The notes under the pieces: generated by a model
What the model was told of the DNA's origin: nothing
The model's input: only the letters and a program-made list of their open reading frames with translations
Database searches by the model: none
Program-made: the position numbers and the translations under genes
NCBI GenBank assembly: GCA_015039365.1
Contig: WION01000237.1
Coordinates: 1 to 64,000, forward strand
Origin: Amanita rubescens
Lineage: Eukaryota > Basidiomycota > Agaricomycetes > Agaricales > Amanitaceae
DNA length: 64,000 nucleotides
Direction of reading: 5' to 3'
In this document: piece by piece, positions 21,322-62,732 of the stretch
Layout of the letters: each line of letters begins with the position of its first letter
Numbering within the stretch: position 1 is the first letter of the stretch

Positions 21322-22962
21322 ATGCACGCTATTATCACTTGCAATGCTGCTACCTTCACCGACGCTGGTCGTCAACCTTTCACCGAAATCCAAAACCTCC
21401 CTAATTATTCCTCTAAAGTCATCTTCATCGAAGTGTCTGACGACATTTTAGGTTGCTTGGACAACGTTCAAGTCAACTCGGCGGTGAACTCGCCGGTCGC
21501 CCAATCGCCAGTGCTCATCTCAACTCTTAGGCGTGTCAAGACAATCAATAGACTTGAAGGTCTGGCGATGCTTGAACGCAGAAAAATGCACCTCGCCCGG
21601 GAAGAATTCACTGTCGCTGTTCCGCTTGCTGGTCTGGCTCCTGTCTCAATTCTCAAACGCGTTAAGACCATCAATAAACTTGAAGGCTTGGCGATTCTTG
21701 AACGTAGACGTGCCTTACTTGCGGAGAACACGCCGGTTGCCCAGTTGCCAGTGCCAGTGCCAGTGCCCACTATTAAGCGCGTCAAGACCATCAATAGACT
21801 TGAAGGCTTGGCTATGCTTGAACGCAGAAAGGCTCACCTCGCCGGGGAGGAATTTACTGTTGCTCTTCCTCTTGCTGGTCTGGCTCCTGTTTCTACTCTC
21901 AAGCGCGTTAAGACCATCAATAAACTTGAAGGCTTGGCGATTCTTGAACGTAGACGTGCCTTACTTGCGGAGAACACGCCGGTTGCCCAGTTGCCAGTGC
22001 CAGTGCCAGTGCCCACTATTAAGCGCGTCAAGACCATCAATAGACTTGAAGGCTTGGCTATGCTTGAACGCAGAAAGGCTCACCTCGCCGGGGAGGAATT
22101 TACTGTTGCTCTTCCTCTTGCTGGTCTGGCTCCTGTTTCTACTCTCAAGCGCGTTAAGACCATCAATAAACTTGAAGGCTTGGCGATTCTTGAACGTAGA
22201 CGTGCCTTACTTGCGGAGAACACGCCGGTTGCCCAGTTGCCAGTGCCAGTGCCAGTGCCCACTATTAAACGCGTCAAGACTATCAATAGGCTTGAAGGCT
22301 TGGCTATGCTTGAACGCAGAAAGGCTCACCTCGCCCGGGGGGAATTTACCGTTGCTCTTCCTCTTGCTGGTCTGGGTCTTGTTTCTACTCTTGAGCGCGT
22401 TAGGACCATCAATAAACTTGAAGGCTTGGCCATCCTTGAACGCAGACGTGAAGATGACTCTTTGGCCGCTGGCGAGACTTCCTCTCTTAAGCGCGTTAGG
22501 ACCATCAATAAACTTGAAGGTTTAGCAATCCTTGAACGCAGACGCGCTGGATCTGAAGATGACTCTTTGGCTGCTGGCGAGGCTTCCTCTCTTAAGCGCG
22601 TTAGGACTATCAACAGGCTAGAAGGTCTTTCCAAACTTGAACGCAGAAAAGGCCGGTTCGTCCAAGAAGATTTTACTATTGCTTTCCCTCTGGCTGGTCT
22701 CGCTCAGGCTCCTACCCTCAAGCGCGTCCGAACGATCAACAAATCTGCTGGTCTTGCTATTCTCGGTCAACGCTCTGCCAAGGAAGACTCTAATGATGAT
22801 TCAATTGTACTCGCCGAATCTGGTTGTACTCTCAAGCGCGTGAGGACGATTAACAAGCGCGCTGGACAAAACATTCTTGAACGCAGGAAGGCTCGTGTCT
22901 TTGATAAGTCAGCTGTTCAGGCTTATCTCGCTGCGGCGGCAGCGGGAGAAGCCAGCTCTTAA
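21322..22962 (+). CDS. Tandem-repeat protein with 12 dibasic-flanked VKTIN...LERR cores
   Basis: Single-exon gene of 546 codons from the ATG at 21322. An in-frame start at 21283 exists but lies too close to the TATA box. The N-terminus (MHAIITCNAATFTDAGRQPF) is not a convincing signal peptide. From about residue 68 a core of roughly 17 residues, LKRVKTINKLEGLAILERRR and variants, recurs 12 times. Linkers alternate between ALLAENTPVAQLPVPVPVPT and a HLAGEEFTVALPLAGLAPVS type, and become acidic (EDDSLAAGE) near the C-terminus. Each core is bounded by KR before and RR or RK after, like Kex2 sites, but no secretion signal is visible. Cores would form basic amphipathic helices. No known family recognised. 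The good promoter and long open frame argue for a real gene. Confidence 0.75.
   Translation: MHAIITCNAATFTDAGRQPFTEIQNLPNYSSKVIFIEVSDDILGCLDNVQVNSAVNSPVAQSPVLISTLRRVKTINRLEGLAMLERRKMHLAREEFTVAVPLAGLAPVSILKRVKTINKLEGLAILERRRALLAENTPVAQLPVPVPVPTIKRVKTINRLEGLAMLERRKAHLAGEEFTVALPLAGLAPVSTLKRVKTINKLEGLAILERRRALLAENTPVAQLPVPVPVPTIKRVKTINRLEGLAMLERRKAHLAGEEFTVALPLAGLAPVSTLKRVKTINKLEGLAILERRRALLAENTPVAQLPVPVPVPTIKRVKTINRLEGLAMLERRKAHLARGEFTVALPLAGLGLVSTLERVRTINKLEGLAILERRREDDSLAAGETSSLKRVRTINKLEGLAILERRRAGSEDDSLAAGEASSLKRVRTINRLEGLSKLERRKGRFVQEDFTIAFPLAGLAQAPTLKRVRTINKSAGLAILGQRSAKEDSNDDSIVLAESGCTLKRVRTINKRAGQNILERRKARVFDKSAVQAYLAAAAAGEASS
21657..22394 (+). repeat. Three near-identical 246-bp direct repeats
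   Basis: The same 246-bp (82-codon) block, containing one K-type and one R-type core with both linkers, begins at about 21657, 21903 and 22149. The first two junctions look almost base-identical while the third copy drifts, suggesting recent unequal exchange. The period is a multiple of three, so the frame is kept. Confidence 0.85.
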
Positions 22963-36010: not shown

Positions 36011-36496
36011 TCGGTGAGCTTCATCTGGTTTGCTTTAAACTTGGCCCAATCTCCCACAGGATATATCAACTTTGCATCAACTTTGCATGTTTCTTCTGGA
36101 TCCGCAGATCCGAATTCAACTTCGGATTTTTTTTTTGTAGTTCTACTAGCGTGTACGCATCGTAGTCCGTTTGAATTGACTCTTGTTGGCCAACGGATTC
36201 TCTGACTTTGTAACGACCTAGTGTCTGTTTACTGTTCGATGGGAAGAAAAGGATTCGACTTTGAAGGGCGCGCAACTGGTTAAATTAACCCTCGTCCTGT
36301 CTTGACCTCCCTAGCTTTCCAACGTCGTCTCTGTATAGCTGCGACGACCAGCTTACTTTGTCCCGTCCCATGCAAGGCCCAACCGTAGTTTTCCACACGC
36401 ACGGTACATGCGCAGCGCATTTGCTTCAAAACCTTAACTGTGGCGGTGCCCAATTCCGCCTCGGTCACGCCAGCGATGTCACACAACGGCACGACC

Positions 36497-38145
36497 ATGG
36501 ACCCTCTACCCTCCCGACCAATCGAGCCTCACCTCCCCACCCGCTGTCCAAATTCTACCTGCAACACCCACCTTGAATTCCGTATACCATCTCCACCACC
36601 ACCACCACGCTTTCCTCTCAAAATCCGCTGCTTCGCTTGCAAAACCATCTTCACCTCTCCATTCAACCCTACCCAACCCGAACCTCCCCCTCGCCCTCGT
36701 TCATCCGAGTCCTCCTCCTCACCTTCCACACCACTCAATGGCTATTCTACAAAACCACCATCATCATCATCCACACCCGCGCGTAAATCCCGAATGATCG
36801 GCACCCAAGAAAAACCCTTGGAAACCGAATACTACGACCTCCTAGGCCTAACCCCCACTTCCACCCAAGACGACATCAAACGCGCCTACCGCCGCCTCGC
36901 CATCAAACACCACCCAGACAAAAACCTTGACGACCCCACCGCCTCTGAACGATTCAAGAAAATCTCCATCGCTTACCAAACGTTATCGGATCCTGAACTC
37001 AGGAGGCGTTATAACGAGTTGGGAGCGAAAGCTGGGACGCCGGAGGGAGGGTATGTTGACCCTGAACAGGTGTTTAGTGCGTTGTTTGGTGGCGACAAGT
37101 TTGTGCCGATTATTGGGAGTATTAGTTTGGCGAAGGAGATGAAGGCGGCGATGCAAGAGGCTGGGGGAGAAGATGATGATAATGAAGAGGATGCCAGTGC
37201 TGTTGCTGCGGGTGGAGGTGCGAAGTTGGACGTTAGCAAGCAGGCAGGGGAGAAGAATTCGAAACGAGATTCAAAGGTGTTGTCTCCGGAGGAAAGAGCG
37301 GCGCGGGATGAAAAGGCGAGAAAGAAGTCGGCGGAAAGGGCGGCGGTGAGAGAAGAACGGGTCTCGAAACTTTTTGAGAACCTTGAACGCAAAGTGGCTA
37401 TATTCACGGAGATCGCTGCGGGTCCGAACGACAGGGATATGCTCAATGGTTATAAACAGATGTGCGAGCTAGAAGCCGAGTACGTCTGTCTTCCCGACTT
37501 ATTTTCTGATTTTTTACACAACGTCCAACCAGTGACCTCGTCCACGAATCGTATGGCTACGAACTTTTACAAACGATCGGTTTCGTCTACGCCTCCAAAG
37601 CCAAACACTTCCTCGCCACTCACCAAACCTTTTTCGGCGTCGGTGGATGGATACACAACGTCCAATCTAAATACCACGTATTTTCCGAAACCGTATCTAC
37701 CCTTCGTTCCGCAATCGAACTCAAAGCCGTGTTTGACCAACTCCAAGCGGCTGAAAAGGCAGGCGGACTTTCCCCAGAGGAGAGGAAGAAACTCGAAGAG
37801 CAAGCTGCGGAAAAGGGCGTTCAAGCCTTGTTCAAAGGGACCAAATTAGAAGTGGAGAGCGTGTTGAGGGAAGTTTGTGATAGGTTATTGGATGCTGGAG
37901 CGGGGAGGGATAAGGTATTGTTGAGAGCGATCGCGTTGCAGATTTTGGGGGAGGCGTATATGGCTGTCAAGAAGGATCCAGATGCGCCTGGGTTGGGTAC
38001 GGGGTTGGGTGGGATGGCGCAGTCTGGACAGGGTCGGGCGCAAGGGTCGGCGGCGAGTTCGGCGCGCGGAAATGGGATGGGAGATGATAGTGAGTATGTC
38101 AAGGTAGAGACGAAGGCGAGTAGGGAGCGTTCGGGCCGGAGGTGA
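36497..38145 (+). CDS. DnaJ-domain co-chaperone with DnaJ-X C-terminus (copy A, intact)
   Basis: Start ACCATGGAC at 36497 gives MDPLPSRPIEPHLPTRCPNS with a CPNSTC...CFACKT cysteine set that may bind zinc. Residues from ETEYYDLLGLTPTSTQDDIK onward are a J domain with the HPD motif (IKHHPDKNLDD) that stimulates Hsp70 ATPase. A linker with an acidic run follows (EDDDNEEDAS). One GT-AG intron (37480-37532) joins ...CELEAD to LVHESYGYELLQTIGFVYAS, the start of a DnaJ-X domain as in yeast Caj1/Djp1-type proteins, which continues through FGVGGWIHNVQSKYHVFSET to a coiled AAEKAGGLSPEERKKLEEQA. The stop is at 38145. Copies B and C are broken, so this is the functional copy of the cassette. Confidence 0.85.
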
Positions 38146-38519: not shown

Positions 38520-41500
38520 ATGTCCGAGGCGAATAGCAGTGCGTTCTATGCACGTCGGTACACATAGTAACGATGATTAATTTTAAGTCACAGATCTTAT
38601 TGATATGCTCAAGGAGCGATACAACTGCCCTTATTTTCGCATTCTTGTCATTGGGAGGGCAAATGCAGGCAAGACTACTATTCTTGAGAAAGTTTGTGGT
38701 GTAGCAATGGGCACAAAACCCATTGTCTACCATCAGGACGATAGTGACCTTAAACGTAATACATCTTTTGCACATCAAGCATTTTTTGCTTAAAATTTAA
38801 TGTTAGAACCTTTGGACATCCATCTGGCTCCAACAATTGAGGTGAGTCGACTCATTTGGTAGCTAGCCCCTCCATTGAGACATAATCAATATCCAGAGAG
38901 GCATACATGATATTGAAGACCAAATTACATACCCTGGAAGCAATTTCATCTTCCATGACTCGCAGGGGTTTGAGGCTGGTAATAATAGGGAACTTGAAGA
39001 TGTCTGGAAATTCATTGAGAGGAGATCTGCTTCAACTACAACAAGGCAGCAGTTGCATATGATTTGGTATTTTGTACTCTATTTTTATGGGGCTGGCAAG
39101 CTTAACTGCCACAGGTACTGCATACCTATGGAAGGGTCTCGCCCTATTCAATCTGAAGAGCTCAAATTCTTCACTAAAGGAATTGGGGAAGGTACTATGC
39201 AAACCACCAGGCATAAAATTGGATTACTGACCAGAAGAGGCCCACAGTTCCTTTGGTGGCAATATTCACCAAATTTGATGCACAAATTATCAAGGAATAT
39301 GTGCAATTAAATGACATGGAAGATGATGGAGATAAGTGGTACAAGGCCAAGGAGAATGCTGAAGACACTTTTCAGAGAGTATATCTCCCCAAGGTCATGA
39401 AAACTGGATATCCTCCTAAGACATATGTACACTTGGAAGGTGAGAATGACAACATTTGATCATTTAAAGGGAGAGATAATCATGGTTGGAAGATATGGAT
39501 ATGCCAGAGACAGACTGTCATGAACTGACTGCAATATCAGCTGCTGCAATTGATGACCCCAGTCTTAACAGGCTGTTTGTATCAACACAAATGAACAATC
39601 TTGATCTTTGTGTCAAGTCAGCTGTTAAGTGAGGATCTTATTGTAGGACCAGTTTTAAAGTTTCATGGCTTCCAGATTTTCCTTGGGTGCAAGTGGTTTG
39701 GACTATGTTGTTCATCTTGCATTCAATAGCTTTCCTCATTATTGGGTGAGTTTTGAATACTTTGATATGGACAACAACTTACCAATGAGTCAAAGTTCCA
39801 AAGAACAGTAAGTATGTATGATCAATGGATAGCAGCACTAAAACTTATTCTCTAGAATGTGAGTATGCTGATACATTATTCCATGATTTTGCTAAATGCT
39901 AAAATTAATAGGATGTATGTGATTTGCACATATCTACCATTGAATGCTACTACAAATCTCTAAGCATGTTTTGATGAAAGTGAGTGTCACTATAGTTGCA
40001 CCTGCAATAAGTCTGATTCAATTGGTAACAGTGGGTAGGCAAAATTAGACCATATTTTGCAATCACTTATGATCATATGAGCAACAGGAAGTGAGTGACA
40101 CCATCTTTCCCTGGAAGGCAAATTCATCTCATGGCCAACAGGATGTATGTTACATACATTGCACCTTTCTTTTCAGGTAATTAGCTTATTGTATCTATTC
40201 TCAAACAGAGAAAAGTGGGTGAAAACACATCTCTTTAGATCTGCATTTTGAATTTTATGACAAATAGGAAGTTGGTGACCATGCAATATCATTGGGCAAA
40301 TTGTTTAATGATTTGGTCCATAAATACATAATAGCGTGTGAGTGACAGTGTATTCTATTCTCTTGGGTAATTGTGCCCTAACTGGTTGCCAACAGTCTGT
40401 GAGTGGAACTACATCTCAGTCTTCATACAGACAATGTCATACATAATATTCATTCCCATCCAACAGTCTGTGAGTAGCTCTCTCTACACTTCACCTCCAA
40501 GGCAGTCTATCATGTGATTCATATGTTATTTTATGACCAACAGAAGGTAAGTAACACAGAAGCTTATTTATATGCAGAAAGTCACACCTTATTTCTTCTG
40601 GGATCAAAAGTTTGTAAGCAACATTGAACTTCTTTCTCAGAATTCCAACACATTTCTCACCATGACCAACAAGAGTGTGAGTACACCACAATTTGTTCTA
40701 CTGATCAGCTTTTCATCTCATACCACAACCAACAGAAAGTGAGTGGATGCTGCACTCTTACCTATCAGAAACTTTATCATGCATGACCAAAAGGGAGTAA
40801 GCAGCATTTAGTCATATGTATCAAGTGATGTCATAAAATCTTATCTTACAATGAACAGAGTGTAAGTGACTTTTTCTTCCAGGCATCTCATCAGATCTTA
40901 TACCATATTTGGCAGGTTGTGAGTAACATTATGCCTTTATCTCTTTATCTTACTTGATTTCATGATAAGGAGAGTGTGAGTGAAAGGACAGCTTCAACAA
41001 GTCTGATCTCTTATCTTCTAATGATAAACAGAAAGTGAGCAATACTGCACTTTCATGTTGGTCTCATGAGTCATGTTATCCTATCTCACAGAATGTTAGT
41101 AATGCTGCACTTGCTTATCAATGAACAACTCCATCTAATTTCACCTGATTGCTCACAGCCTGTGCATAACATTTAATGTTTTCATCCCAAGTAGTCATCT
41201 TGATAATAACCAACAGAAAGTGAGTAACATTGTATGTACTGCAATTTTACATATCTCCATAACCAACAGGATGCAAGTACATGTCACTTGATGTTTTGTC
41301 TCTAATCCAATGATGCCCATAATACCACACCCATGGACAACAGGAAGCAAGTAGCTCTGTACATTACTTGCTATTGCCTCTTATCATATTTTGTGTTTAC
41401 AGAATGTAAGTGTCATGAGACTATCATATGTCATGTGCTTGCACCATGTCTTATTATCAACAAACAGACTGTAAGTGAGGCACTGCAATAGCAAAAAAAT

Positions 41501-42641
41501 CATCTGACCTCATCATATCTTCTAACCAACAGGCTGTGAGTGGCCCTGACATTTGTCTGAAAATCAGTTCTGATCTTGTAATCAACAGTTTGTATGTAAT
41601 GTTGTATTTCTATCCATTTGTGGCCTGATTTGATGTCCTATTATGACCGACAGGATGTAAGTTGCATTGTATTTGGCATCCCACAAGCTATCCTAATTTA
41701 TTTCATGGCTGATAGGATGTGAGTGTTGCCATCATTTATTTGCTATTCAATCTTACTAGATCAATTCCAACAGGTTGTGAGTGATATGGCAAATTTTCTG
41801 CTGATAGATCTGATAATAGGGTCAATAGGATGTGGGCTTGAATGCATCTTTGTTTTTGTACAGATTATTGATTCAATTATCAATAGAAGGTGAGTAAGAT
41901 GATATTTCCACATGGAATTTATCTCATAATTAACAGAAAGTGGGTGTTGGTGCAGTCTCATCACCATCACCATCTCATGGTCATAGATTGTGAGCAACAT
42001 TGGATTTCTGAAATAGAATATTTCCATAAGGATATTACAGAATGTAGGGGAAAATATTGTCCTTTCTGGGGTCAATCTTTATGTTTCCTTCACAGATGGT
42101 GCAGCTCTATTTTAATTTTTCCATAGCTGTTCCCTCACTTTTCCTATGTCCTAGGTGAGCAGTGATGTACACATCACATCATCAGAGACATTCTAACCTG
42201 CTTTAGGTTGTAGGTCATTCACTGAACTGAACTTGGAAATATTGCCTATCATGATTCACCTCCTCAGGGCCAACTTTGTGATCTGTTTGACTTTGGAGAA
42301 CAAGCAAAAGATTTCAGTGAGACAGTGAGACTATCAATACATATCTTGCTGTTTAAAAGTTCTCACCCTTGAACCAGCCCACATGCTATCAAATTATAGC
42401 AGGTAGTAAGATGCACTGTTCTGTATTTTCCCTCAATTAAGAATTCACAGCAAGTGTCATCATTGCCAAGAAATCATTTTGGATAAAAAAGCCACTTATT
42501 GAATCAATCCCAGAAGCTTTTAATCACTTCAAGAAAGCTGGAAGTGTTGATAAACTGAAGGCTAGAATCAAATCAGAATATCTTCCACATGATCATCAAG
42601 ATTTAATTGAATTTTTATATGATATAATTAAGGATTTCTGA
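38520..42641 (+). CDS. P-loop GTPase with a single-codon microexon array (copy A)
   Basis: Eight ordinary exons (38520-38553, 38594-38755, 38807-38841, 38897-39066, 39115-39191, 39248-39439, 39493-39628, 39676-39745) splice in frame to 292 codons. They contain the P-loop GRANAGKTTILEKVCG, HDSQGFEAG (DxxG), IWYCIPM, VPLVAIFTKFD (TKxD) and MPETDCHELT, and end FPHYW. Except for a weak GTCGGT donor in intron 1, the donors look normal. This is the agaricomycete G-domain family, of unknown cellular role. Next comes a 2.5-kb array of 38 microexons plus GTT at 42207, an exon GQLCDLF...GEQAKDFSET (42268-42324), and a last exon (42451-42641) reading VIIAKKSFWIKKPLIESIPE, ending IKDF. The frame into the last exon is off by one base in my model, so one junction there is unresolved. 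Confidence 0.75.
39746..42267 (+). other. Array of about 40 introns separated by 3-nt exons (copy A)
   Basis: Each junction reads (A/T)AG, then three bases, then GT(G/A)AGT. Examples: TCT at 40396 and 40467, AAG at 40544, ACT near 41468, ATG at 42096. I count 38 microexons: 35 of exactly 3 nt, one of 15 nt (39965-39979), one of 6 nt (40209-40214), and one of 6 (or 3) nt near 40971. Intron lengths measured are 47-76 nt. Many introns end in a common TGACCAACAG or TAACCAACAG and begin GTGAGTGACA or GTGAGTAACATT, so they are related in sequence. All microexon lengths are multiples of three and none is a stop codon in phase 0. Two adjacent donors are GCAAGT (41273 and about 41349). Confidence 0.75.
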
Positions 42642-43423: not shown

Positions 43424-46131
43424 TCAGAAATCCTTGATTTGATCATATAAAAATGTAATCAAATATTGAGGATCAGATGGAAGACATTTGGCATTAATTC
43501 TGGTCTTCAGTTTTTCAACATTTCCATCTTTCTTGAAGTGGTCCAAAGCTTCTTGAATTGATTCAACAATTGGCTTCTTCATCCAAAAGGATTTCTTGGC
43601 AATGATGATGGATGCTGACACTTGTTAATTGATGAAGAAATAAGACAGAACATATTACCTGCTAAAATTTGACAACCTATGGGCTGGTTAGACAAGTGAG
43701 AACTTTTAAGACAGAAGAATACATATGGATGTCCTTACAGTCTTGTGAAATTTCACTGTTTGTTCTCCAAACAACTTGCAAAGTTGGTCCTAAGGAGGTC
43801 AATAGGTAAGATTCCCAAGTTCAGCTCAGCAAATAACTTACAACCTAACCAGCAGATTAAAACCTTTCTTGATATCACTTGTACATCATTGCTTACCTAT
43901 GAGATCAGACAGGTAAGTGAATAGCTGTGAAAAAATTGAAATGGTATTGCACAATCTGTGCATGAAATTAGTAGCAGAACAACAAAATATTTTCCCTCAC
44001 TTTCTGTGAAATATTTATAGAAATACTGCATTTCAGAAGTCAAGACTTGCTCACAATCTGTGGCCATGAGATGGGAATGATGAGATTGCACAAGCACTAA
44101 CTTCCTGTCAATTGTGAGATGACAACCTAGTGGAAAAATGCGGTGTTACTCACATTCTTTTGATCATGAGATAATTGACATTGAAGACAAGAATGCAATG
44201 CTGCTCACATCCTGTTGATTATAATGGCAGATCATTCAGCAGGAAGGTGCAGTATCACTCACAAGCTGTAATCATGATTGATATAATGAGACTATATATA
44301 CAGGGGCATTGACACTCACAGACTGTTGGTCATGAGATAAATTAAAACAACTTGAGAGACCAAATGCAGTACAACCCACCACCTGTATATCATGATGGAA
44401 CATCTGATAAAACTGGGTTATGAATAGGAATATGTGATATCACATACAAACTATTGGTTATGATGTTGAAACTAATTTTCAGATGAAATTTCAAGGCCAC
44501 TCACAGGCTGGATTTTTAAGATGGAATCATTATGGGGTTTCTAATGCAGTATTTCACTCACCATCTATTTGTTAGCAATGAGACAGAATCACAGATGGTA
44601 GTCAGACCATGAAACTTACAGGCTGTTAGCCATGGAATGAGATGAGGTTGCAATACATATATGGAATAATATTGTAGTATCACTTACTTCCTGTTGGCCA
44701 AGGATGGTGAGCATGGATGACAGATGAAATTTCAATGATGCTTACAACCTGTAAGTTGTCCAAATAAGAAAGTGCAGGGTAGAAAAAGTGTGTGTATAGC
44801 ATACTAACTTCCTGTTGGTTATGAGATGAAATGGCCACTTGACACAAAAGCTCAATGTCACCCACAATCTGTTAGTCATTGAATGGGATGAGTTTATCTA
44901 CAGATAGGTGAAGTGCAGTATTACATACATCCTGTGCCTGGGGTAGAATGGTATAAGATCAATATATGTACAAATGCAAGGTTACTACTCACTTTCTGTT
45001 CATAGTGGGCGATAGGGATCAAACATGCAGGTAAATTGCAGTCTTGCTCACCATGCCCTCCTTACAACGGGGTGAACTTGATAAGATTTGTCAGGAGATA
45101 ATGTGAACTGTTACTCACAATCTGTCAAACATGGGGTGAGACTTCCTGGAAGAAAAATGTCCAATTTAACTTACACTCTGTTGTAGGATGAGTTTAGATG
45201 ATTGACAAAGTACAAGTATGGCCTTCCTACTCACATTCTTTTGATCATACATGATGTTTATTGCATAATAGGAAAATGCAAAGTGCCACCCACTTTCTGT
45301 TGGTCATGGTGTGAGATGGAAAGACTGTCTGACATATATGGTACTGTGATCCCTCACATTCTGTTATTCTTGGTGAGAATTCTAATGGAACTCTAATACT
45401 AAAGTTCAGTGCCACTCACATACTACTTGTCACAAAATAAGATATGAATTCCTGGATATGAACAAATCTTGTTGCTTACACCACGCTAGCCATGGAATGA
45501 GTAGCCTTGGAGGTTGTAGTGAATGGCCACTCACATCCTATTGGATAATAATATGTAGTAAGTACATAGAAGAGGAAATGTCGATCTACTCACTTCCTGT
45601 TGACCATTAATCAGTAATAAATCATGATAGAGACTGTTAGATGATGTTGCAGGACCACTCACACCCTGTTTTAACAGAATAAAAATGTTGATAGAGAGAG
45701 GTGTAGTGCCACCTACATCTCGCTGTTTAAGGATAGATGCAATCACAAACTACAATCTGGAAAGAAAAGTAACTTACATCCTTTGGCCATGCATTAGTTT
45801 GCTCTCTGGACAGAACTGTTGCCACTCACTTCCTGTTCCCCATCCCATAAAACTTGCAAAATGTGCACTGGTTTTGCTTACCCACTGCAATTATATGGAT
45901 CAGATTTGCTTGCGGGTACATATGAGCATTGGAGTCAGTGACACTCACTCTCATCAAAACATGCTTATTTGGGATGATTCCCACATAACCCATTACTAGT
46001 GATAAATGCTAGATATTTGGAGAATTACACACATCCTACTCATTCAGACATTCAGCAAGGCATTCATCATGAGAGGGTGATGTCTCAAACACTCACTCTC
46101 TGCAAGAAACTTTTGAGATATCCAGTATGAT

Positions 46132-49100
46132 TAGTGCTGCAGAGTCCTGTCCTGTCCTGTCTTTTGGCCCCGGAGGGCAGGACTGAAGACAGGACTGAAG
46201 ACTGCAAGCTCAAAAGACCAGAGGACAGGACCAAGACTGCTGTAGGACAGGACTGCAGTCCTGGATCAGTCTTGGACCGGTCCTGACCAGTCTCGGACTT
46301 AATTCAGTCTCGGACCGGTCTGGACTGGTCCTGACCGGTCCTGTGCAGTCTCGATGATTAGTATATTACTATTATAAGATAAATATCTATATACTAAGTA
46401 AAGGTAACGGTGTAATCTACCATGTATGGTAATTTCAATTAAAACCATCATCATAGTCTTCCGCATATAGCTCCTCCTCGTCTTTAAGTATTAGCGAAAA
46501 ATCATTGAAGTCTACATCTACCTCTTCAATAGAACGGGAATTTACTCGTGCCCAGTCAATTATATTACCTTTCCAGTTGTACTGTAGGCACTCGAGTGCC
46601 TCAATGAGATCGGGCCCAATAGATGAGCGACGATCAGTAGTGACCTGTTTCGTGCGTGAAAAGAGTCGTTCACAGGAAACAGATGATCCGGGGATGGGCA
46701 AGATATCGAGTGCTATGCGGGCAAGGGTCGGATACCTCGTTGTATGCATCTGCCACAAATCCTACTAATTAGCACCGTTATGCTGCTCATTGATATTACA
46801 CTCACAGCCCACCATTTTAGAGTATCCATCTTCTTCTTCACGTCACATAAAGGTTCCTCGACATATCGCTTGAGCTCCCCTTCCCATCCTTGTGTCACCG
46901 CCATTAAACGCCCCTTACGTGCCCGGTCGAAGTCATCGTCGTCGTCGTGATCATCGTCATCGTCATCATCACGGCGATGACAATGCTTGTTGGTATCCAG
47001 ATCGATCACCTCATTCGCTGTTTGAATTGCGACGCCGAAGCGTTTCGGCCAGTATTCAGCCATCTACTATGATGTCAGCACAGATATTACTAGGTAAGAA
47101 GAGACTCACGGCTTCACGGACAATGACCCATGCCTCTGCCTGCCAATCCTTCGCATCGTGACTTCCCGCTTGAATCTCCTCTTCCCACTCATTCCTTCCA
47201 CCCCATTTCGTCTCTATGTATTCCATTCGATAGTAGGGGTGCAATACTGTTGTCAAGGATCAGCTACTCATCAAACAACGATGGAAATGAAAAACGTACA
47301 CATTGATAAGACATATACATACCGGCGTATTATCGAGGTTAACGTAGTACTTGTTCAATTTCGATAATCCGCTCTTGATTGCAGAGCGAAAGTCGCTGAA
47401 TTTGGGGTTTGCAAGCTTGCGCTCCCATCGTGTCAAGAGGCCTTCGAGTGCGGGGATAACACGGTGCAGCGTGGGGAAGGCGTCCGATGAGAACTTCTGC
47501 TGGTATTCGTTGGCATCCTGCGAGAATATGTGAGCATCCATGAAAAGAACGCACAAACGAGTCAGTCGAGATCCATACCTCTAGTATTTCGGCACACCAC
47601 GCCACCCGTTCCCATTTTGGCTCATCTAGTAAAAAAGCCGTCCATGGAATCTTCTTCACTACCTTTCCATGTTTATGAATGGTTGTTATGGGGCCAAATT
47701 TCTTATCTGCGCTCAGAATAAACAAATCAATAGGCTACAAAGATGTGTTTAAGTCCAGAAATGCAGTACTACTACCAAGAGTCCACGCACCTCGCGTAGC
47801 TTGTATGCACGCTCGCACATGGCAAACGCAGTGCCCCATCGAGTATTACCATGCAGGGGTATCTTCAGTGGCTTATCAAAGCCATGATCGCGTTGCTGCT
47901 TTTCGAACCACTCCTTGCGCTGACCTGAAGCTTGAATCTGAATCATGCGATCGATCAGAAATCAGTCAAGTGACAAGGATGGGAAGAAGCCAAGATACCT
48001 TGACGACGAGTGTCCGGATCGTAGCGATGACATCCAGCCCGCCAATAACTAACCGATTTTCAGGCAAAGAGGGATCAAAGTCCCAGATTGCCTGCTTCGT
48101 CTCAACGACCGCCAGCTGGGTGATCTCAGACATGAAGTCTGAGATCCCCAACTGGATCACATGCGCTAGGCACCTGTATGTGGTGCGTGAAATGTGATTC
48201 ATGAAGAACAAAACAACTTAACTCACCCAAGTTGACGGGATTCTGCTGACCACTTTGTAAACCCACACCGCCTTAACACGGATGCCACCTTCTTTACTGT
48301 GGTCATGTTATTACTTGCATTGTCCGCAGTGACGTAGCCAAGCTAAGTTGCCGAAGATAAGAAGATGGTAAGGAAAAGATTTGCTAACGCACATTGTTAG
48401 ATGTTTTGGAAGTAACACCGACACGATCCAAGAGCTTGATAACGTAGCGGCCAAGGTTGTCGCCATCGTGTGGACCGGAAATCTTGTGCATCGCGAGAAC
48501 TTCTGAACGAAAAACCCAGCCGTCCGCCTTCACATCAATCCACTGGGCGCAAAGACCCAAAAATGCGGTGCTTGTGTGCGGAGCTGTCCAGGTATCCCAA
48601 TTAACTGAAACATCTCCAATGGTTTGCCGGAAGGTGAGCTTCAGATTGCTGATATATTCATTAAAGTCACTGATTATCTTGCTGCGAATTGCTGAGCGCC
48701 CTGGAAGATCTTCGCGAGTTGTTTTTGGACGCATCGTGACCAGGCAATTGGTGAAGGTGAGATCATCACCAAGGACAAGGGCCTAACCGGGGTTTAGGGT
48801 AAGGACTCAATGCGATCTTATCGATATTAAATTACTAAGCACGTACCTCATCACTGCAGACAACATGTTTGACAATCGCGTTGAGGATGGCAGCTTGGGA
48901 GAACGCGGTCGGACCCTCAACCTTCTGTACGACGCTGTCAAGCGTCTTTTGCGTGTGGACCGGCTTCTTCCTCTCTGCTTCATTACGCTCTCGCTCCAAC
49001 ACGCTCTTTGGTACCGCAGCTGGCTTTTCGGCGTACCCCTTCTCTTTGCACCGCTTTGAATACTCTTGGTAGTGGAAGGCGGCGATGTGGCGGCGGCAGC

Positions 49101-50381
49101 TTGTGTTACTGCCACTAAGCCAACCCGCCATCGCACCACGTTTCTTTTTAACTACGGCATCTTCTCTGCAAGAAACACGACTGGGTATGCATAAACCACT
49201 CGGTGTATCCACATGACTAACGTACCTGCAGATTCCACACCACCGTCCCTTCTTCATATCAGAAGACCCATCGCGACGATTAAACTTGACCGTTACGCAG
49301 GTGGAGAAGATTGTCTCCATGTCACGCGTTTTTTCGACCTTCGCCTCATGATGACCTGTGCATTCATCAGGCTCCATCTGTAAATGCGAATTAGCCTGTA
49401 CGTTCGAAATGCTGACTCTTAATATAGAGGACTTACCTCGCTCTGAACTTCAGCATCCTCTTCATCTCCCTCAGGCGCCCTTCTTTCCTCGTCCACTTCT
49501 TCAACTAGGTTATTGCTACTCCTGTTCTCAACTTCAATTATTTCATCTTCAGAGTCTTCGGGTGTCCGGGTATAGCGACGTTTTGGTGCCGGCGTCAAGT
49601 CATCAACTTCAACATCAAGTGTTCGTTTATTGGATCTCGACGATGACGACACGGAATCTTGTGCCTCAAGAAGTCTCTGAGAGGGAACATGCTTGCGTGA
49701 TGATTTGCGCAACATGGCTGACTCCATGTCTCGTGAACGAATGAACCCAGAGGTGGGCCGACGTTTTTTATTCCAAAAAAAAGAGACTAATTACTAATTG
49801 CTAGTACACCTGAGTCGGAGTTAGGTGCGCGCACTAGTGTTGCGGCGTTAAGTCCACACAATGATCCGAAGAGCATGCCGCCTTGCACTTACTGCACCAT
49901 CTACTCAACGTCTCGAACTTAAGAAGTACTATATTAAGCACTAATCGACGCGTGCCACCTTGATCTAATACTCAACACTCTGAACCTGAGCTAAGTTAGG
50001 CATCCAACACCTGAGTCTTCCGTGTAACGAGCGACGCCCACTTGGCATCACCCGTTTGATGTTTCAAACCTCTCCCATACCCCATTGAGTTATTATTAAT
50101 AGTAATACACATCAGATGGCTGTCATTGCCCGGGCGCCGGTATTCAACGGCCGCTGAGTCAAGTTGTCGTCTCAAATGCCATTGCCTGCCTAAGCTTTAA
50201 GACCGGTCAGGACCGGTCCCAACCAGTCTTGGCCGGTCCTTCATTTCCCTGAGTTCCCCAGGACCGGGACCGGGACCGAGACAGGACAGCAAAAGACTGA
50301 GCTGCAGTCCCGTCTTTGACCAGTCCTACTCCGGTCTTTGATCAGTCTCGGACCGGTCCGGGACCGGACTCTGCAGCACTA
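46132..50381 (-). mobile_element. hAT-family DNA transposon
   Basis: Terminal inverted repeats TAGTGCTGCAGAGTCC (46132-46147) and its complement (50366-50381) match over 16 bp. The 8-bp direct repeat AGTATGAT flanks both ends (46124-46131 and 50382-50389), the hAT signature. Both subterminal regions (46140-46350 and 50195-50365) are packed with GGTCCTGACCGGTCC-like motifs in both orientations, probably transposase binding sites. The interior encodes a multi-exon hAT transposase on the minus strand. Complete ends plus full-length coding suggest recent activity. Confidence 0.93.
46435..49727 (-). CDS. hAT transposase
   Basis: The start at 49727 (MESAMLRKSSRKHVPSQRLL) opens an acidic, Ser-rich exon ending at a GTAAGT donor near 49440. 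Next comes a BED-type zinc finger split by an intron: WCGICR, then SNTSCRRHIAAFHYQEYSKR (C-x2-C ... H-x4-H). Later exons carry VNWDTWTAPHTSTAFLGL with its catalytic Asp, LGYVTADNASNNMTTVKKVA with the second Asp, YRCLAHVIQLGISDFMSEI (CxxH insert), PLHGNTRWGTAFAM, and the C-terminal dimerisation region YPTLARIALDILPIPGSSVS with CERLFSRTK. The last frame ends DDGFN at 46435. Exons alternate with roughly 50-70-nt GT-AG introns. The order is that of full-length hAT transposases, and I see no obvious break, though not every junction was checked. Confidence 0.8.
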
Positions 50382-51958
50382 AGTATGATAAAGCATCCCC
50401 CTATACTTACTGTTCTTTTGAACTTTGAATGACTCAGCCAAAGCTGCTATCTATATCAACATATTCACAAACTCACCCAATAATGTGGGAAGCTACGTGT
50501 TACAGTCATTATAGCCTGTTTCATGCTAATCCCATCATCAATTTGGAGGCCCAGTCTGGATACTATCAAGGTTTGAAATTGATCATGAAGTATGATGCTT
50601 ACTGAAGTGCTGACTTGACACAAAGATTGAGATTGTTCATTTGTGTTGATACAAACAGCCTGTTAAGACTAGGGTTATCAATGGCAGCAGCAGATATTTC
50701 AGTAAGTTCATGACAGTGTGTCTCTGGCATATCCATATCTTCCAATCATTATTACCTCTGCATTTGTAAATGATGCAATGTTGTCATTCTCACCTTCCAA
50801 GTGCACATATGTCTTAGGAGGATATCCAGATTTCATGACCTTGGGGAGATATACTCTCTGAAAAGTGTCTTCAGCATTCTCCTTGGCCTTGTACCACTTA
50901 TCTCCATCATCTTCCATGTCATTTAATTGCACATATTCCTTGATAATTTGTGCATCAAATTTGGTGAATATTGCCACCAAAGGAACTGTGGGCCTCTTCT
51001 GGTCAGTAGTCTAATTTTATGCCTGGTGGTTTGCATAGTACCTTCCCCAATTCCTTTAGTGAAGAATTTGAGCTCTTCAGATTGAATAGGGCGAGACCCT
51101 TCCATGGGTATGCAGTACCTATGACAATTAAGCTTGCCAGCCCCATAAAAATAAAGTACAAAATACCAAATCATATGCAACTGCTGCCTTGTTGTAGTTG
51201 AAGCAGATCTCCTCTCAATGAATTTCCAGACATCTTCAAGTTCCTTATTATCACCAGCCTCAAATCCCTGTGAATCATGGAAGATGAAATTGCTTCCAGG
51301 GTATGTAATCTGGTCTTCAATATCATGTATGCCTCTCTGGACATTTGTTATGTGAGGTAATAGCTACCAAATGAGTTGACTCACCTCAATTGTTGGAGCC
51401 AAATGGATGTCCAAAGGTTCTAACATTATATTTAAGCAAAAATGCTTGATGTGCAAAAGAAGTATTACGTTTAAGGTCACTATCATCCTGATGGTAGACA
51501 ATGGGATTTGTGCCCATTGCTACACCACAAACTTTCTCAAGAATAGTAGTCTTGCCTGCATTGGCCCTCCCAATGACAAGAATGCGAAAATAAGGGCAGT
51601 TGTATCGCTCCTTGAGCATATCAATAAGGTCTGTGACTTAAAATTAATCATCGTTACTATGTGTACACGTGCGCAGAACGTACTGCTGTTTGCCTCAGAC
51701 ATTGCTTGATGCTTTTATCGCCACTGGAGAAATGATACACCGGAAGATGATGTAGGGCGGCGAGAGATCGGTGAATAACGTAGCCAAAAAGGCGTGTAAG
51801 GCGTGTAGATGAGCGCGAGAGATAACCTGCAGAACGGACCCCGAGAGCACCAACTGCCGCGTTACGGACCCCGATACTAAGCCTCACAAGTCCAAATTAA
51901 ACAATGCGCTCTAATCTAAAATGATCATCAGGTACTACGGTATCTCGAATCGGATCCA

Positions 51959-53176
51959 TCACCTCGGGCCCGAACGCTCCCTACTCGCCTTCGTTTCTAC
52001 CTTGACATACTCACTATCATCTCCCATCCCATTTCCGCGCGCCGAATTCGCCACCGACCCTTGCGCCCGACCCTGTCCAGACTGCTCCATCCCGCCCAAC
52101 CCCGTACCCAACCCAGGGGCATCTGGATCCTTCTTGACAGCCATATACGCCTCTCCCAAAATCTGCAACGCGATCGCTCTCAACAATACCTTATCCCTCC
52201 CCGCTCCAAGATCCAATAACCTATCACAAACTTCCCTCAACACGCTCTCCACTTCCAATTCGGTGCTTTTGAACAAGGCTTGAACGCCCTTTTCAGCAGC
52301 TTGCTCTTCGAGTTTCTTTCTCTCCTCTGGGGAAAGCCCGCCTGCCTTTTCAGCCGCTTGGAGTTGGTCAAATACGGCTTTGAGTTCGATAGCGGAACGG
52401 AGGGTAGATATGGTTTCGGAAAAGACGTGGTATTTAGATTGGACGTTGTGTATCCATCCACCGACGCCGAAAAAGGTTTGGTGAGTGGCGAGGAAGTGTT
52501 TGGCTTTGGAGGCGTAGACGAAACCGATCGCTTGTAAGAGTTCGTAGCCATACGATTGGTGGACGAGGTCACTGGTTGGACGTTGTGTAAAAAATCAGAA
52601 AAAAAGCGACAGACGTACTTGGCTTCTAGTTCGCACATCTGTTTATAACCATTAAGCATATCCCTGTCGTTCGGCGTCCCAGCTTTAGCGCCCAACTCGT
52701 CATAACGCCTCCTCAGCTCAGGATCCGACAAACTTTGGTAAGCGATGGATATCGTTCAGCGGCGGTGGGGTCATTGTAGGTTTTTGTCTGGGTGGTGTTT
52801 GATGGCGAGGCGGCGGTAGGCGCGTTTGGTGTCGTCTTGGGTGGAAGAGGGGGGAAGAGGCGGTTAGGCCGAGGTCGTAGTATTCGGTTTCCAAGGGTTT
52901 TTCTTGGGTACCGATCATTCGGGTTTTACGCGGGGTGTGTGGATGATGATGATGAAGGGCCTGGTGGTGGTACCGCTGGTGGTTTTGTACTATAGCCATT
53001 GAGTGGTGTGTAAGATGAGGAGGTTGAGGATGAACGAGGGCGGGGAGGTTGAGGATGGGTAAGATTGAAGGGAGAGGCGAAGATGGTGTTGCAAGCGAAG
53101 CAGCGGATGGTGAGAGGAATGCGTGGAGGTGGTGGTGGAGATGGTACACGGAATTCAAGGAGAATGTTGCGGGCAA
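51959..53176 (-). pseudogene. DnaJ/DnaJ-X gene, copy B (broken)
   Basis: Inverted copy of 36497-38145. The C-terminal exon is conserved (LREVCDRLLDLGAGRDKVLL, GMGDDSEYVKVETKAS), as is the DnaJ-X part. The whole linker between KAGTP and NDRDMLNGYKQMCELEAK is deleted. The J-domain region (52730-52900) has small deletions that shift the frame, and the N-terminal exon is rearranged. It cannot make a full protein. Confidence 0.75.
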
Positions 53177-53295
53177 AATTTGGACAGCGTGCGGGGAGAT
53201 GAGGCTCGATTTACCGGGAGGGCAGAGAGTGGTCGTTATGCGACACCGTTCGTATGCACAGGCAAGAAGGGAGAGCTCAAATATTCTTGTAGTGT
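53177..53295. other. Leader and junction of the copy B cassette
   Basis: Resembles the 5' flank of the DnaJ gene around 36440-36560 on the opposite strand, then joins unrelated sequence. Confidence 0.4.
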
Positions 53296-56016: not shown

Positions 56017-59000
56017 ATGTATGAGGCAAAGAATGGTGTGTTTATCATCCTATTCATCCAAATTAACAGTGATGATTGATCTCAATGGGTTAAAGACCTT
56101 CTCAATATACTCAAAGAGCGATATAAATGCTCTCATTTTCGCATTCTTGTCATTGGGAGGGCTAATGCAGGCAAGACTACTATTCTTGAGAAAGTTTGTG
56201 GTGTAGCAAAGGGCACAAAACCCATGGTCTATAGTTGGTATGATCATGACCTCAAAAGTAATAATTCTTTTGCACATCAGGCATCTTTACTTAAAATATA
56301 ATCTCAGGACCTTCCAATATCCATCTGGCTCCAACAATTGAAGTGAGCCAAGTTGTAACTTGTTTGGAAGCTAGTCCTCCATTGATGTATAATAAATATC
56401 CAGAGAGGCATACATAATATTGAAGCCCAGATTTCATACCAAGGAAGCAACTTCATCTTCCATGATTCACAGGGGTTTGAGGCTGGTGACAAGAAGGAAC
56501 TTGAAGATGTCTGGGCATTCATTGAAAAGAGGAGGACTGATTCAACCAGAACAAGGGAGCAGTTGCACATGATTTGGTATCTTGGGCTCTGTTTTTATGG
56601 AGATGGAAAACTTAACTACTCTAGGTATTGCATACCCATGGGGGGATCTCGCCCTATTCAATCTGAAGAACTCAAGTTCTTTACTAAAGGAACTGGGGAA
56701 GGTATGCAAACCACCAGGTGCAAAACTAGACTACCAATCAGATGAGGCCCACAGTTCCCCTGGTGGCTGTATTCACCAAATTTGATGCCGAAATTATTAA
56801 GGAATATGTGAAATTAAATGACATGGAAGATGATGAGGATAAGTGGTGCAAGGCCAAGGAGAATGCTGAAGACACTTTTCAGAGGGTATATCTCCCCAAG
56901 GTCATGAATACTGAATATCCTCCTAGGACATATGTGCAGTTAGAAGGTGGGAGTCACAATGTTGCATCATTTAAAAGCAGAGATAATCATACATAGCCAA
57001 AGATATGGATTTGCCAGAGACAGACTGTACTGAACTGACTGAAAAATCAGCTTCTACAATTGATGATCCAATTCTTAACAGGCTGTTTGTATCAACACAA
57101 ATGAACAATCTTGATCTTTGTGTCACAACAGCATTTCAGTAAGGATGATACCTCATGATCAGTTTCAAACCTTGATATTTCCAGGCATGTCCTTAATAGA
57201 GATGGAATCAATATGCGTGATGCTCTATGGCTTGTAACCAACAGCTTCCCACATTATTGGGTGAGTTTGGTAAATATGATGATATAGATAGGAGCTGAGG
57301 CATTCAAAGCACAAAAGAGTAAGTACTATAAGCTAGTACATGATGGCACTGGATAAATCAAAATCATCCTCCAGAACTTAGTCACAGTGAGTCTAAGCTC
57401 TGTTGAGACCTCCTTGCATAATGAATGTCTTACTGAATGTCTAAAGGAGCAAGATGTGGTGATTATGCAATTTTTTTGCATTTACATAACATCATTGAGT
57501 CATGTGGCAATTGCCCAAATAGCATATTTTGATGAGAGTGAGTGTCACTGATGGTACCAGCAAGCAAATCTGATTTGCATGATTGCAGTGGGTAAGCAAA
57601 GCCAGTGCACATTTTGCAAGCCTTTATCATGGCATGAACAACAGCAAGTGAGTGACACAAGCTCTTTCTGGAAGGTAGACTCACATATGGCTGATTGAAA
57701 GGGTGTAAGTTACTTTTCTTTCCAGGTTGTTAGCTTATGATTGCATTTATCCTCAAACAGCGAGGAGTAGGTGGCACGATACCTCTCTCTATCAATATTA
57801 TATGACAAACAGGATGTGAGTGGTCCTGAAATGGCATTCAACAGTTACTTTCATGATCTATGTATTGCATCTAATCCTGTGAACAGCCTGTGAGTGCCAT
57901 GGACTCTATTCTTTCATGGACTCCTACTCTCATACACTAATCAATCATCAACAGCATGTGAGTAGATCCACATTTCCTTTTCCATGCAATTTCATAACTC
58001 TTATCATTGTTCAATAGTATGTGAGTGACTCTTCACTCCAATGTCCAAGGCTATTCACTAGATCCAATCCCATGGATAACAGCCTGTAAGCAATATGCAA
58101 CACAGATATTTATTTATATGCAGGGACTCACACATTCATCTCATTTTGTGACAAGTAGTATGTGAGTGGCACTGAACTCTGTTAGAGGTCCATTATATTT
58201 CTCACTTGGACTAACAGACTGTGAGGACATCACAATATCTAATTGCAAAACAGTATTTCCATCTTATACCATGACCAACAGTCAGTGAGTGGCACTTTGC
58301 AGTTTCCTATCAGGCAATATTCATCATGTGTGATCAAAGGATGTAAGCAGTATTGTACTATACTTGATCAAATGGTCTCATCCAAACTCATCCTACAATA
58401 GAGTGTAAGTCACCTTTTTCTTCCCAGAAGCCTCTCTTACTACCCCAGATTTAACAGGTTGTGAGTAACAGTTCACATTTATCTCCAGACAGGTCTTATC
58501 TTTGTCACAAGGAGGGCCCGGGAATTGTGGTGAGCAAGACCACAATTTATCTGCATCTTTGATCTCTATTTATCTTCAATGATGGGCAGGAGGTGAGTAA
58601 CCCTGCACTTGTAAATTGGTCTTACATATGTCATTTCAGGGGCAAATTGTATGTAATACCACACTTTACCTATCTATAGAGAAACCTGTCACATTCCATA
58701 ACTAACAGATTGTGGGTGACGTTGGGATTTTGTTTCAATTACTGGCCATCTCATCTCTTAACCAACAGGAAGTGAGTGAGCCACACATTTTCTGCCCTGC
58801 ACTTCCCCAATAACTTACAGAGTGCAAGTATCATTGAATTTCTATTTGTGATGCATGCTTATTGCCAATAGGAAGTAAGTGACACTACATTATCTTTCCA
58901 TATATTGTGATCTTACCTGAACTCACAACAAACAGACTGTAAGTGTCATTGTCTGACCATCATCTGTCATGCTGTTTCAGCCTGTCTTATTGCTAACAAA

Positions 59001-62731: not shown

Positions 62732-62732
62732 T

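Follow-up and report, generated by a model that had tools for sequence, protein, structure and literature searches.

The micro-exon genes (MEG genes) of Schistosoma are described as containing 10–20 very short exons of 6–81 bp (3–81 bp in the abstract of the same source), mostly 15 bp long, which are separated by introns of 0.1–5 kb (PMC10526429). In plants, microexons of 1–15 nucleotides (nt) occur, for example in APC11 and VPS55, and for APC11 intron definition with the removal of one intron after another has been proposed (PMC4674806, PMC8831610). The same reasoning of one-by-one intron recognition has been published for an Arabidopsis 1-nt exon (PMC4674806). Human RPS24 contains three neighbouring microexons between exons 4 and 6, which are alternatively spliced (PMC11162997, PMC12686416), and zero-nucleotide recursive splicing sites are reported for very long introns, in which they leave no residues behind (PMC13149111). 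Introns that multiply are represented by introners or introner-like elements, i.e., many near-identical spliceosomal introns inserted in many genes (PMC9860276, PMC4457414), and by a case of repeat expansion in Cryptococcus, in which a repeat of ~107 nt including exon ends accounts for the gain of two introns (PMC2395259). Here, we focus on a stretch of 64,000 nt from the genome of Amanita rubescens (the window), located on contig C154 of an assembly of 75.7 Mb and 786 contigs. Three GTPase genes in the window, c1, c2, and c3, contain arrays of tiny exons, most of which comprise exactly one codon, and these are very probably spliced together in order.

Each of the three genes has ordinary G-domain exons on its 5′ side and three ordinary terminal exons on its 3′ side, with the array in between (Table 1). 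In c1, the curated array consists of 36 exons of 3 nt, two of 6 nt, and one each of 12 and 15 nt, which amount to 147 nt and encode the 49-residue peptide FQRTNDHVLMKWEDRKERSSKFSKGSVESKNPKDENTAFDDVDKKINMV; the introns between them are of the GT/GC-AG type and 47–74 nt long. The lists of c1, c2, and c3 were curated by hand and checked by a script for AG before and GT or GC after each small exon. All curated exons in the three genes have lengths that are multiples of 3 and lie in phase 0, and one zero-nt junction (AG|GT) is found near each array end.

A chain of tiny exons at 39746–42267 had been proposed by an earlier model-made reading of the letters (the sequence-only reading), and this chain is present. 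A length-blind parse, i.e., dynamic programming with generic fungal splice-site weights in which exon length is not favoured, returned 40 exons for c1, of which 35 are exactly 3 nt long and 38 are multiples of 3. The parse reached a score of 518, as compared to a mean of 269 (standard deviation 15, maximum 309) for dinucleotide shuffles, 290 out of 300 of which were parsable. These 290 shuffles held 1.2 three-nt exons on average and six at most. Moreover, the reverse complement of c1 yielded three such exons, and control stretches from positions 1–36000 of the window (28/30 parsable) not more than four each. The pattern AG-N3-GTRAGN has a density of 9–11 per kb in the three arrays vs. ~0.1 per kb at 1–36000. 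The curated list, with 36/40 exons of 3 nt, corrects the sequence-only reading at the first small exon: the TAA assumed there was rejected in favour of the 12-nt exon TTCCAAAGAACA (39796–39807; FQRT), as an exon of 12/12/9 nt fits all three copies and the homologous protein P0002 reads YRRT at this place. A 28-nt exon at 42127–42154, which requires an intron of 28 nt and destroys the frame, was rejected as well, and the site was taken as the zero-nt junction. A plain tandem repeat at c1 was likewise discarded: a repeat finder reported none and the intron cores are barely more similar than shuffled ones.

The same array is found in c2 and c3, as had been suggested for the copies at 43.6–50.5 and 57.2–60.0 kb. 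In the length-blind parse, 32/40 exons of c2 (with a transposon removed) and 31/41 exons of c3 are 3 nt long, and 34/40 and 37/41, respectively, are multiples of 3. The array peptide of c3 is HKRNLVTEQDHILMRWQGRGDPHYPYTSDSVEGPGIVEGQIIESETMHILQIEEKIKII. Differences in exon length between the copies (6/9/18 nt, 3/9 nt, and 12/9 nt) are also multiples of 3, and the array of c2 is short of one unit, which is CGT in c1 and CCT in c3. The zero-nt junction of c1 has counterparts at the equivalent positions of c2 (43896) and c3 (59690), and a similar one is present in the alleles L029 and L030 of a paralogue.

The array is a trait of the gene family across the genome. Searches returned at least 150 matches to the terminal exon and 322 to the GTPase exon (haplotypes included). 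Outside the window cluster, 41 stretches were taken (L015–L055), which leave 38 loci after subtraction of two alleles and one near-copy. Seven of them (L017, L019, L021, L027, L045, L051, and L054) lack an FPHxW donor by pattern and were not parsed. All 31 loci with this donor contain an array of 8–74 three-nt exons (median 43), the longest being that of L049; arrays with fewer than eight were to be dropped, but none was. This set leaves out the window itself, fragments and further copies of the window cluster (L001–L003, L007–L014), short pieces of another paralogue (L004–L006), two alleles of L029 (L030, L031), and a near-copy of L035 (L038). Three-nt exons received a bonus of 1.5 bits in the parser for these 31 arrays and in the comparisons of L037, L056, and L057, while a bonus-free parser was used for the window copies, the shuffles, the unguided parse of L029, and a count of 28 arrays. 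Exon lists beyond the window are machine parses; hand curation applies to the window copies only.

The bonus-free parser found 859 three-nt exons at 28 of 30 donors (window genes and L038 included), the two donors outside this count being L025, with seven three-nt exons, and the transposon-bearing c2, with two. In the 28 arrays, 998 of the 1174 exons of all lengths from the length-blind parse are multiples of 3. Stop codons are nearly absent: there is one among the 1238 three-nt exons of the 31 arrays vs. 80 expected from their base composition by position, and the single stop among the 859 bonus-free exons is the misread TAA of c1. The third base is C in 5/1238 exons, which fits a limit imposed by the next donor. 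The pattern AACAGNNNGTGAGT occurs 3803 times in the genome vs. 31 times for the reversed pattern, and 356 of the 1238 exons from the parse fit it. Scaling up the 3803 copies from this share (356/1238) gives a rough estimate, drawn from chosen loci, of ~13,000 candidate single-codon exons in the assembly, haplotypes included. Six out of seven stretches chosen by AACAGNNNGTGAGT carry GTPase motifs of the same family; the seventh, L054, has one motif match and no GTPase motif. In the paralogues L025 and L026, larger exons (63, 15, 18, 33, or 18 nt) stand among the 3-nt exons of the corresponding stretch, and these genes are possible intermediates of array gain or loss.

Intron-free homologues indicate that the codons are joined. 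A protein search revealed JGI proteins on contigs of 1.2–1.7 kb, which code for GTPases of the family without introns, and four of them (P0004, P0005, P0006, and P0008) extend through to the C-terminal part. In a spliced alignment guided by protein, six intron-free proteins were compared with 33 arrays; the distant ends of some of these alignments are meaningless. P0006 pairs with 48 single-codon exons of L032 (40 identical and 45 positive), P0007 with 50 of L042 (31 and 38), and P0008 with 42 of L029 (28 and 39), and the median numbers of identical residues over the 33 arrays are 12, 10, and 8, respectively. An earlier version of the guided alignment gave 35/46 and 28/42, and 10/39 and 8/44 for swapped pairs; in this version, the alignment of P0002 is meaningless past the first five exons, where the end is free. 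The agreement is also visible without guidance, as the unguided parse of L029 gives HGKGKLKLTLFGLDMFHNYFNIDTKRFN and P0008 reads HGKGKLKLSLFGHDIFHNYYNLNTRRFS at that place. When the codon order of L029 was shuffled 1000 times, at most 40 identities to P0008 remained vs. 50 in the real order. The three matching proteins lie on contigs of 1.5–1.7 kb; those of P0006 and P0008 measure 1486 and 1669 nt, and the corresponding stretches of the genome, taken from the FPHYW donor to where the parse ends, extend over 3.6 and 3.2 kb. Since the introns would not fit into JGI contigs of this length, the array exons appear to have been joined in an RNA or in an RNA copy. From their size and lack of introns, we infer that these contigs are complementary DNA (cDNA) from related mushrooms.

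P0002 is closer to the window genes, with 85% identity to the annotated part of c1. It joins FPHYW-YRRT-N-D-HVLMK-W, where c1 has FQRT, N, D, HVLMK, and W as its counterpart. After W, P0002 continues with DSD-VNYFTFPVVSL, which is close to the intron readthrough VSYFSFQVVSL of c3. The removal of early introns and the retention of a later one in P0002 are compatible with a 5′-to-3′ order of removal, albeit no proof of it. Taken together, the intron-free homologues that match three paralogous arrays, the near-absence of stops, and the lengths in multiples of 3 support the proposal of the sequence-only reading that the codons form exons of their own, which are spliced together in sequence.

Several observations weigh against ordered joining. 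A genomic retrocopy would look like the JGI contigs, yet it would itself need a spliced RNA. For P0004, P0005, and P0015, none of the 33 arrays is a close match (best 25/53, 21/46, and 27/65 identical), and P0002 keeps one apparent intron. Homologues cover only the first five small exons of the window genes (P0002), and a sequence search returned no homologue of the C-terminal part of c1 at E ≤ 0.001. Furthermore, 176 of the 1174 exons in the length-blind parse of 28 arrays are not multiples of 3, most of which we take to be misparses; no parse of L022 stayed in frame as far as its end; and a YTRAY branch-site motif lies within the last 40 nt of only 43/122 array introns in the window. The array of L056 contains a frame-breaking 4-nt exon, CTTC, at unit 19, which might be an assembly error, a decayed copy, or a real variant.

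Alternatively, the whole array might be one intron of 2.5 kb that is skipped, with the AG-NNN-GT sites as decoys or leftovers. Such a join, which the sequence-only reading had named as evidence against its own proposal, is depicted by P0027, the annotated protein of L024 (C650:812900-816900), in which FPHYW is joined to the next large exon, but not by the intron-free sequences. The models P0001 and P0003, which end at or before FPHYW, also fit this explanation. However, intron-free homologues match three arrays codon by codon, and stops are nearly absent (1 in 1238), which renders it very improbable. Still more improbable is a chain whose codons are irrelevant and which acts as a recursive-splicing relay aiding the removal of a long intron: zero-nt junctions near the array end in the three window copies and in L029/L030 are in line with it, but the residues are conserved with intron-free homologues (45/48 positive for P0006 and L032) and one stop stands against the 80 expected. 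Hence, splicing of single codons in order remains the preferred reading, and gene models of this GTPase family are probably often wrong, because P0027 skips the array and P0001 and P0003 end at or before it.

The array introns of the window are 44–74 nt long, except for the transposon-bearing one. They comprise 119 GT-AG and three GC-AG introns out of 122, the latter in c1 (two) and c3 (one). Donors are strong, with GTGAGT in 51/122, and the acceptor reads AACAG in 49/122. According to the mechanism we propose, the spliceosome would join the single-codon exons successively and in order, which would result in a linker of 49–59 residues in the window genes. Recognition would occur through intron definition, because the introns are complete units of 44–74 nt, whereas an exon of 3 nt offers too little space for complexes to sit at its two ends at once. 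Each splicing event would lengthen the upstream exon by 3 nt, and the donor of this exon would be used next, in a zipper-like manner. If any small exon were skipped, the frame would still be kept, because the lengths are multiples of 3. The zero-nt junction resembles a splicing step from which no codon results; at the matching place of L029 and L030, the intron-free P0008 has no additional residue.

The array might encode a flexible and fast-changing linker that connects the G domain to a C-terminal helical part. In pairwise comparisons of c1, c2, and c3, 21/49, 13/49, and 20/50 aligned residues of the array peptides are identical, as opposed to 203/225, 177/227, and 181/228 in the parts before the array (up to 230 residues). 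For P0004 and P0005, agreement is 279/292 before the array, 23/29 in its first part, 11/29 aligned residues in its middle (lengths 31 and 48), and 87/92 after it. Between c1, c2, and c3, codons diverge by 0.30–0.41 vs. 0.18–0.26 for introns (Fisher p = 0.0016–0.032, uncorrected for limits on codon composition). None of 70 changed codons is synonymous, which hints at diversification, while the scarcity of C at the third base removes many synonymous changes.

The youngest arrays are found in L037, L056, and L057, which are copies of a single gene. Between the FPHYW donor and the young units, L037 and L057 share 1084/1099 positions, and beyond these units 495/500. Within the arrays of the three copies, mean intron identity is 98.7–99.0% and codon-letter identity 0.39–0.44; within-array intron identity in c1 is 0.754. 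In L057, one 62-nt intron is present in 23 exact copies, and nine different codons come after them. Between L037 and L057, 64/147 paired codon letters and 37/3322 intron letters differ, for which the pairing of units is partly arbitrary; between L056 and L057, 5/147 and 12/3476 differ. Two pairs without young units show a normal pattern, with differences at 4/105 codon vs. 83/2556 intron letters (L029/L030) and 1/24 vs. 88/1060 (L025/L026). Codon diversity thus does not track the age of the introns. In 26/31 arrays, adjacent introns are more alike than distant ones (permutation p ≤ 0.05) and local copying therefore occurs. In L036 (C56:64500-69300), similar introns are paired 11 units apart (35/24, 31/20, and 36/25), suggesting that whole blocks of units may have been duplicated. 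Arrays would grow and shrink in whole intron-plus-codon units. As the spacers of the youngest arrays are nearly identical and their codons are not, recombination within introns could swap codons and leave the frame intact.

Duplication of units followed by ordinary mutation fails to explain the young arrays, and two alternatives could account for them, namely introns that were homogenised while the codons were kept or exchanged, and introns copied between older codons; we lean toward the former. It is quite possible that gene conversion homogenises the introns, while selection or unit swaps set the codons. In L057, intron variants are common to nearby units with differing codons (55A>G with CTT and ATC; 6T>C with GGA and CGA; 23T>C with GAT and GGA), and between L056 and L057 three adjacent codons are different, while the introns of that region show a single substitution. 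However, conversion tracts would have to end short of the codon or be selected against, which is not directly seen, and variant 23T>G has the same codon both times.

It is rather doubtful that copies of an introner-like intron were inserted at one codon boundary after another in a pre-existing coding stretch, so that the introns would be young and the codons old. In favour of such copying, codon identity is alike (0.35–0.44) in arrays with near-identical and with diverged introns (nine compared), and L036, L037, and L047 share an intron consensus on visual inspection. On the other hand, L037 and L057 are 98.6–99% identical beside the array, yet their array codons differ. To our knowledge, no insertion mechanism hits every third base in phase 0.

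An origin of the diversity by tandem duplication of intron-plus-codon units, with ordinary codon mutation afterward, is unlikely. The likeness of adjacent introns, the paired introns of L036, and the lack of exactly one unit in c2 agree with such duplication, and so do a 52-nt intron variant in L037 that is followed by CGA in 3/3 cases and 23T>G in L057 followed by CTT in 2/2 cases. The 23 exact introns of L057 before nine codons, and an intron identity of 0.987 next to a codon identity of 0.39, would nevertheless require strongly targeted change or extreme selection after duplication. Beyond its origin, the array might serve as a generator of diversity codon by codon, in which near-identical introns act as recombination spacers and gain, loss, and exchange of units rewrite the linker with its frame intact. 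We put this forward tentatively; the role of such a generator would plausibly be the recognition of non-self or of partners.

The window genes contain the G-domain motifs GRANAGKTT (P-loop) and FTKFD (TKxD), and the matches to Pfam MMR_HSR1, Pfam Arf, and NCBIfam small_GTP all stay below the family cut-offs. The structural model of P0006 shows a confident G domain and C-terminal helices, with a predicted local distance difference test (pLDDT) score <50 at residues 316–359, the first part of the array-coded stretch; FPHYW is at 309–313. The best PDB matches of this model are GM4951, IIGP1/Irga6, and Irgb6, with TM-scores of just ~0.3–0.4. GM4951 is, as we assume, an IRG-like GTPase. The modeled fold gives a hint of kinship to immunity-related GTPases and no more.

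Contigs C190 and C313 also carry copies of the cluster, with 99.5–99.9% identity. The annotated protein P0003 matches the first part of c1, and P0001, an annotated partial protein of A. rubescens, was found by protein search to be identical to the first part of c3 and ends exactly at FPHYW. The second intron of the c2 array has a length of 4311 nt owing to a transposon, which we take to be of the hAT type from its ends, its 8-bp repeat, and a transposase motif. The transposon is polymorphic in the assembly, because the copies on C190 and C313 are without it. A gene with what is presumably a DnaJ-like domain (36440–38140) adjoins c1 and diverged pieces of the same gene (52200–53200) adjoin c2; the cluster seems to have been duplicated together with its flank. 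Elsewhere in the window, open reading frames at 60974–63896 (minus strand) resemble gag and integrase of a retroelement that we assume to be gypsy-type, and a coding tandem repeat with a unit of ~246 bp lies at 21523–22647 within an open frame of 559 amino acids.

Table 1. Positions of the GTPase genes c1, c2, and c3, their arrays, and the inserted transposon in the window.
Feature	Position	Strand	Remarks
c1 GTPase part, eight ordinary exons	38520-38538, 38594-38755, 38807-38841, 38897-39066, 39115-39191, 39248-39439, 39493-39628, 39676-39745	+	GRANAGKTT, TKFD; last residues FPHYW
c1 array	39746-42267	+	40 tiny exons and one zero-nt AG|GT junction
c1 array, longer exons	12 nt at 39796, 15 nt at 39965, 6 nt at 40209 and 40970	+	
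c1 array, 3-nt exon starts, first half	39856, 39912, 40032, 40088, 40142, 40268, 40335, 40396, 40467, 40544, 40611, 40674, 40736, 40794, 40859, 40916, 41032, 41092	+	
c1 array, 3-nt exon starts, second half	41159, 41217, 41270, 41344, 41403, 41468, 41533, 41589, 41654, 41716, 41774, 41829, 41887, 41937, 41987, 42041, 42096, 42207	+	
c1 zero-nt junction	42154-42155	+	CCTAG|GTGAGC, acceptor then donor at once
c1 terminal exons	42268-42324, 42378-42402, 42451-42641	+	stop TGA 42639-42641
c2 further upstream exon	~51634-51455	-	from search only
c2 GTPase exons (six read)	51419-51385, 51336-51167, 51118-51042, 50985-50794, 50738-50603, 50555-50477	-	
c2 array	43790-50476	-	39 tiny exons (34 of 3 nt) and zero-nt junction at 43896
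c2 array, longer exons	12 nt at 50422, 15 nt at 45963, 6 nt at 45722 and 45485, 9 nt at 45060	-	
Presumed hAT-type transposon in c2 intron 2	46132-50381	-	ends TAGTGCTGC...GCAGCACTA; 8-bp direct repeat AGTATGAT
c2 terminal exons	43789-43739, 43683-43659, 43614-43424	-	
c3, eight ordinary exons	56017-56035, 56096-56257, 56308-56342, 56404-56576, 56625-56701, 56755-56946, 57003-57138, 57185-57260	+	
c3 array	57261-59796	+	40 tiny exons (33 of 3 nt, three of 9 nt, one each of 6, 12, 15, and 18 nt) and zero-nt junction at 59690
c3 terminal exons	59797-59847, 59902-59926, 59971-60167	+	

These arrays would put splicing to an extreme test, in which dozens of introns are removed correctly and each exon is one codon. 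Intron definition, splicing order, and the minimum exon might all be studied in a single gene. The arrays also suggest a gene design where frame, insertions and deletions, and recombination can all operate in whole codons. Near-identical introns next to differing codons in the youngest arrays make intron gain and codon diversification directly testable. Moreover, P0001 and P0003, which end at or before the array, and P0027, which skips it, suggest that the annotation of many genes in the family is truncated or incorrect.

In the open-licence full-text literature, no earlier report of runs of 3-nt exons was recognised in titles and abstract openings among the matches listed, and the layout of dozens of single-codon exons is without a precedent found in that literature. 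The comparisons below refer to the known systems as far as the sources cited at the outset describe them. Like zero-nucleotide recursive splicing sites, each window gene has one AG|GT junction within a longer intron (42155, 43896, and 59690), and stepwise removal is also what is proposed for the array, with the difference that array steps would each leave one codon. Introners resemble the near-identical introns of L037, L056, and L057 (0.987–0.990), but not the introns of the window genes (0.754 in c1). Furthermore, the intron copies of the arrays lie 3 nt apart within one gene family, for which almost only family loci were covered. The Cryptococcus case shares the multiplication of whole-intron repeat units inside a gene, but its units are not single codons.

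With respect to tiny exons, RPS24 has several microexons in a row like the genes described here, but they number three and form no codon array. Plant microexons are likewise tiny exons between introns, and GTRAGT donors are found at the 1-nt VPS55 microexon. In contrast to the arrays, they occur singly or as an adjacent pair (5 nt and 12 nt in rice; PMC8831610). The MEG genes of Schistosoma are the nearest named kind, as they share consecutive tiny exons that are mostly multiples of 3, are hard for gene finders, and give variable products. The arrays of A. rubescens differ from them in exons of mostly exactly 3 nt, in numbers of 8–74 per array, in introns of ~57 nt, and in belonging to another protein and another kingdom.

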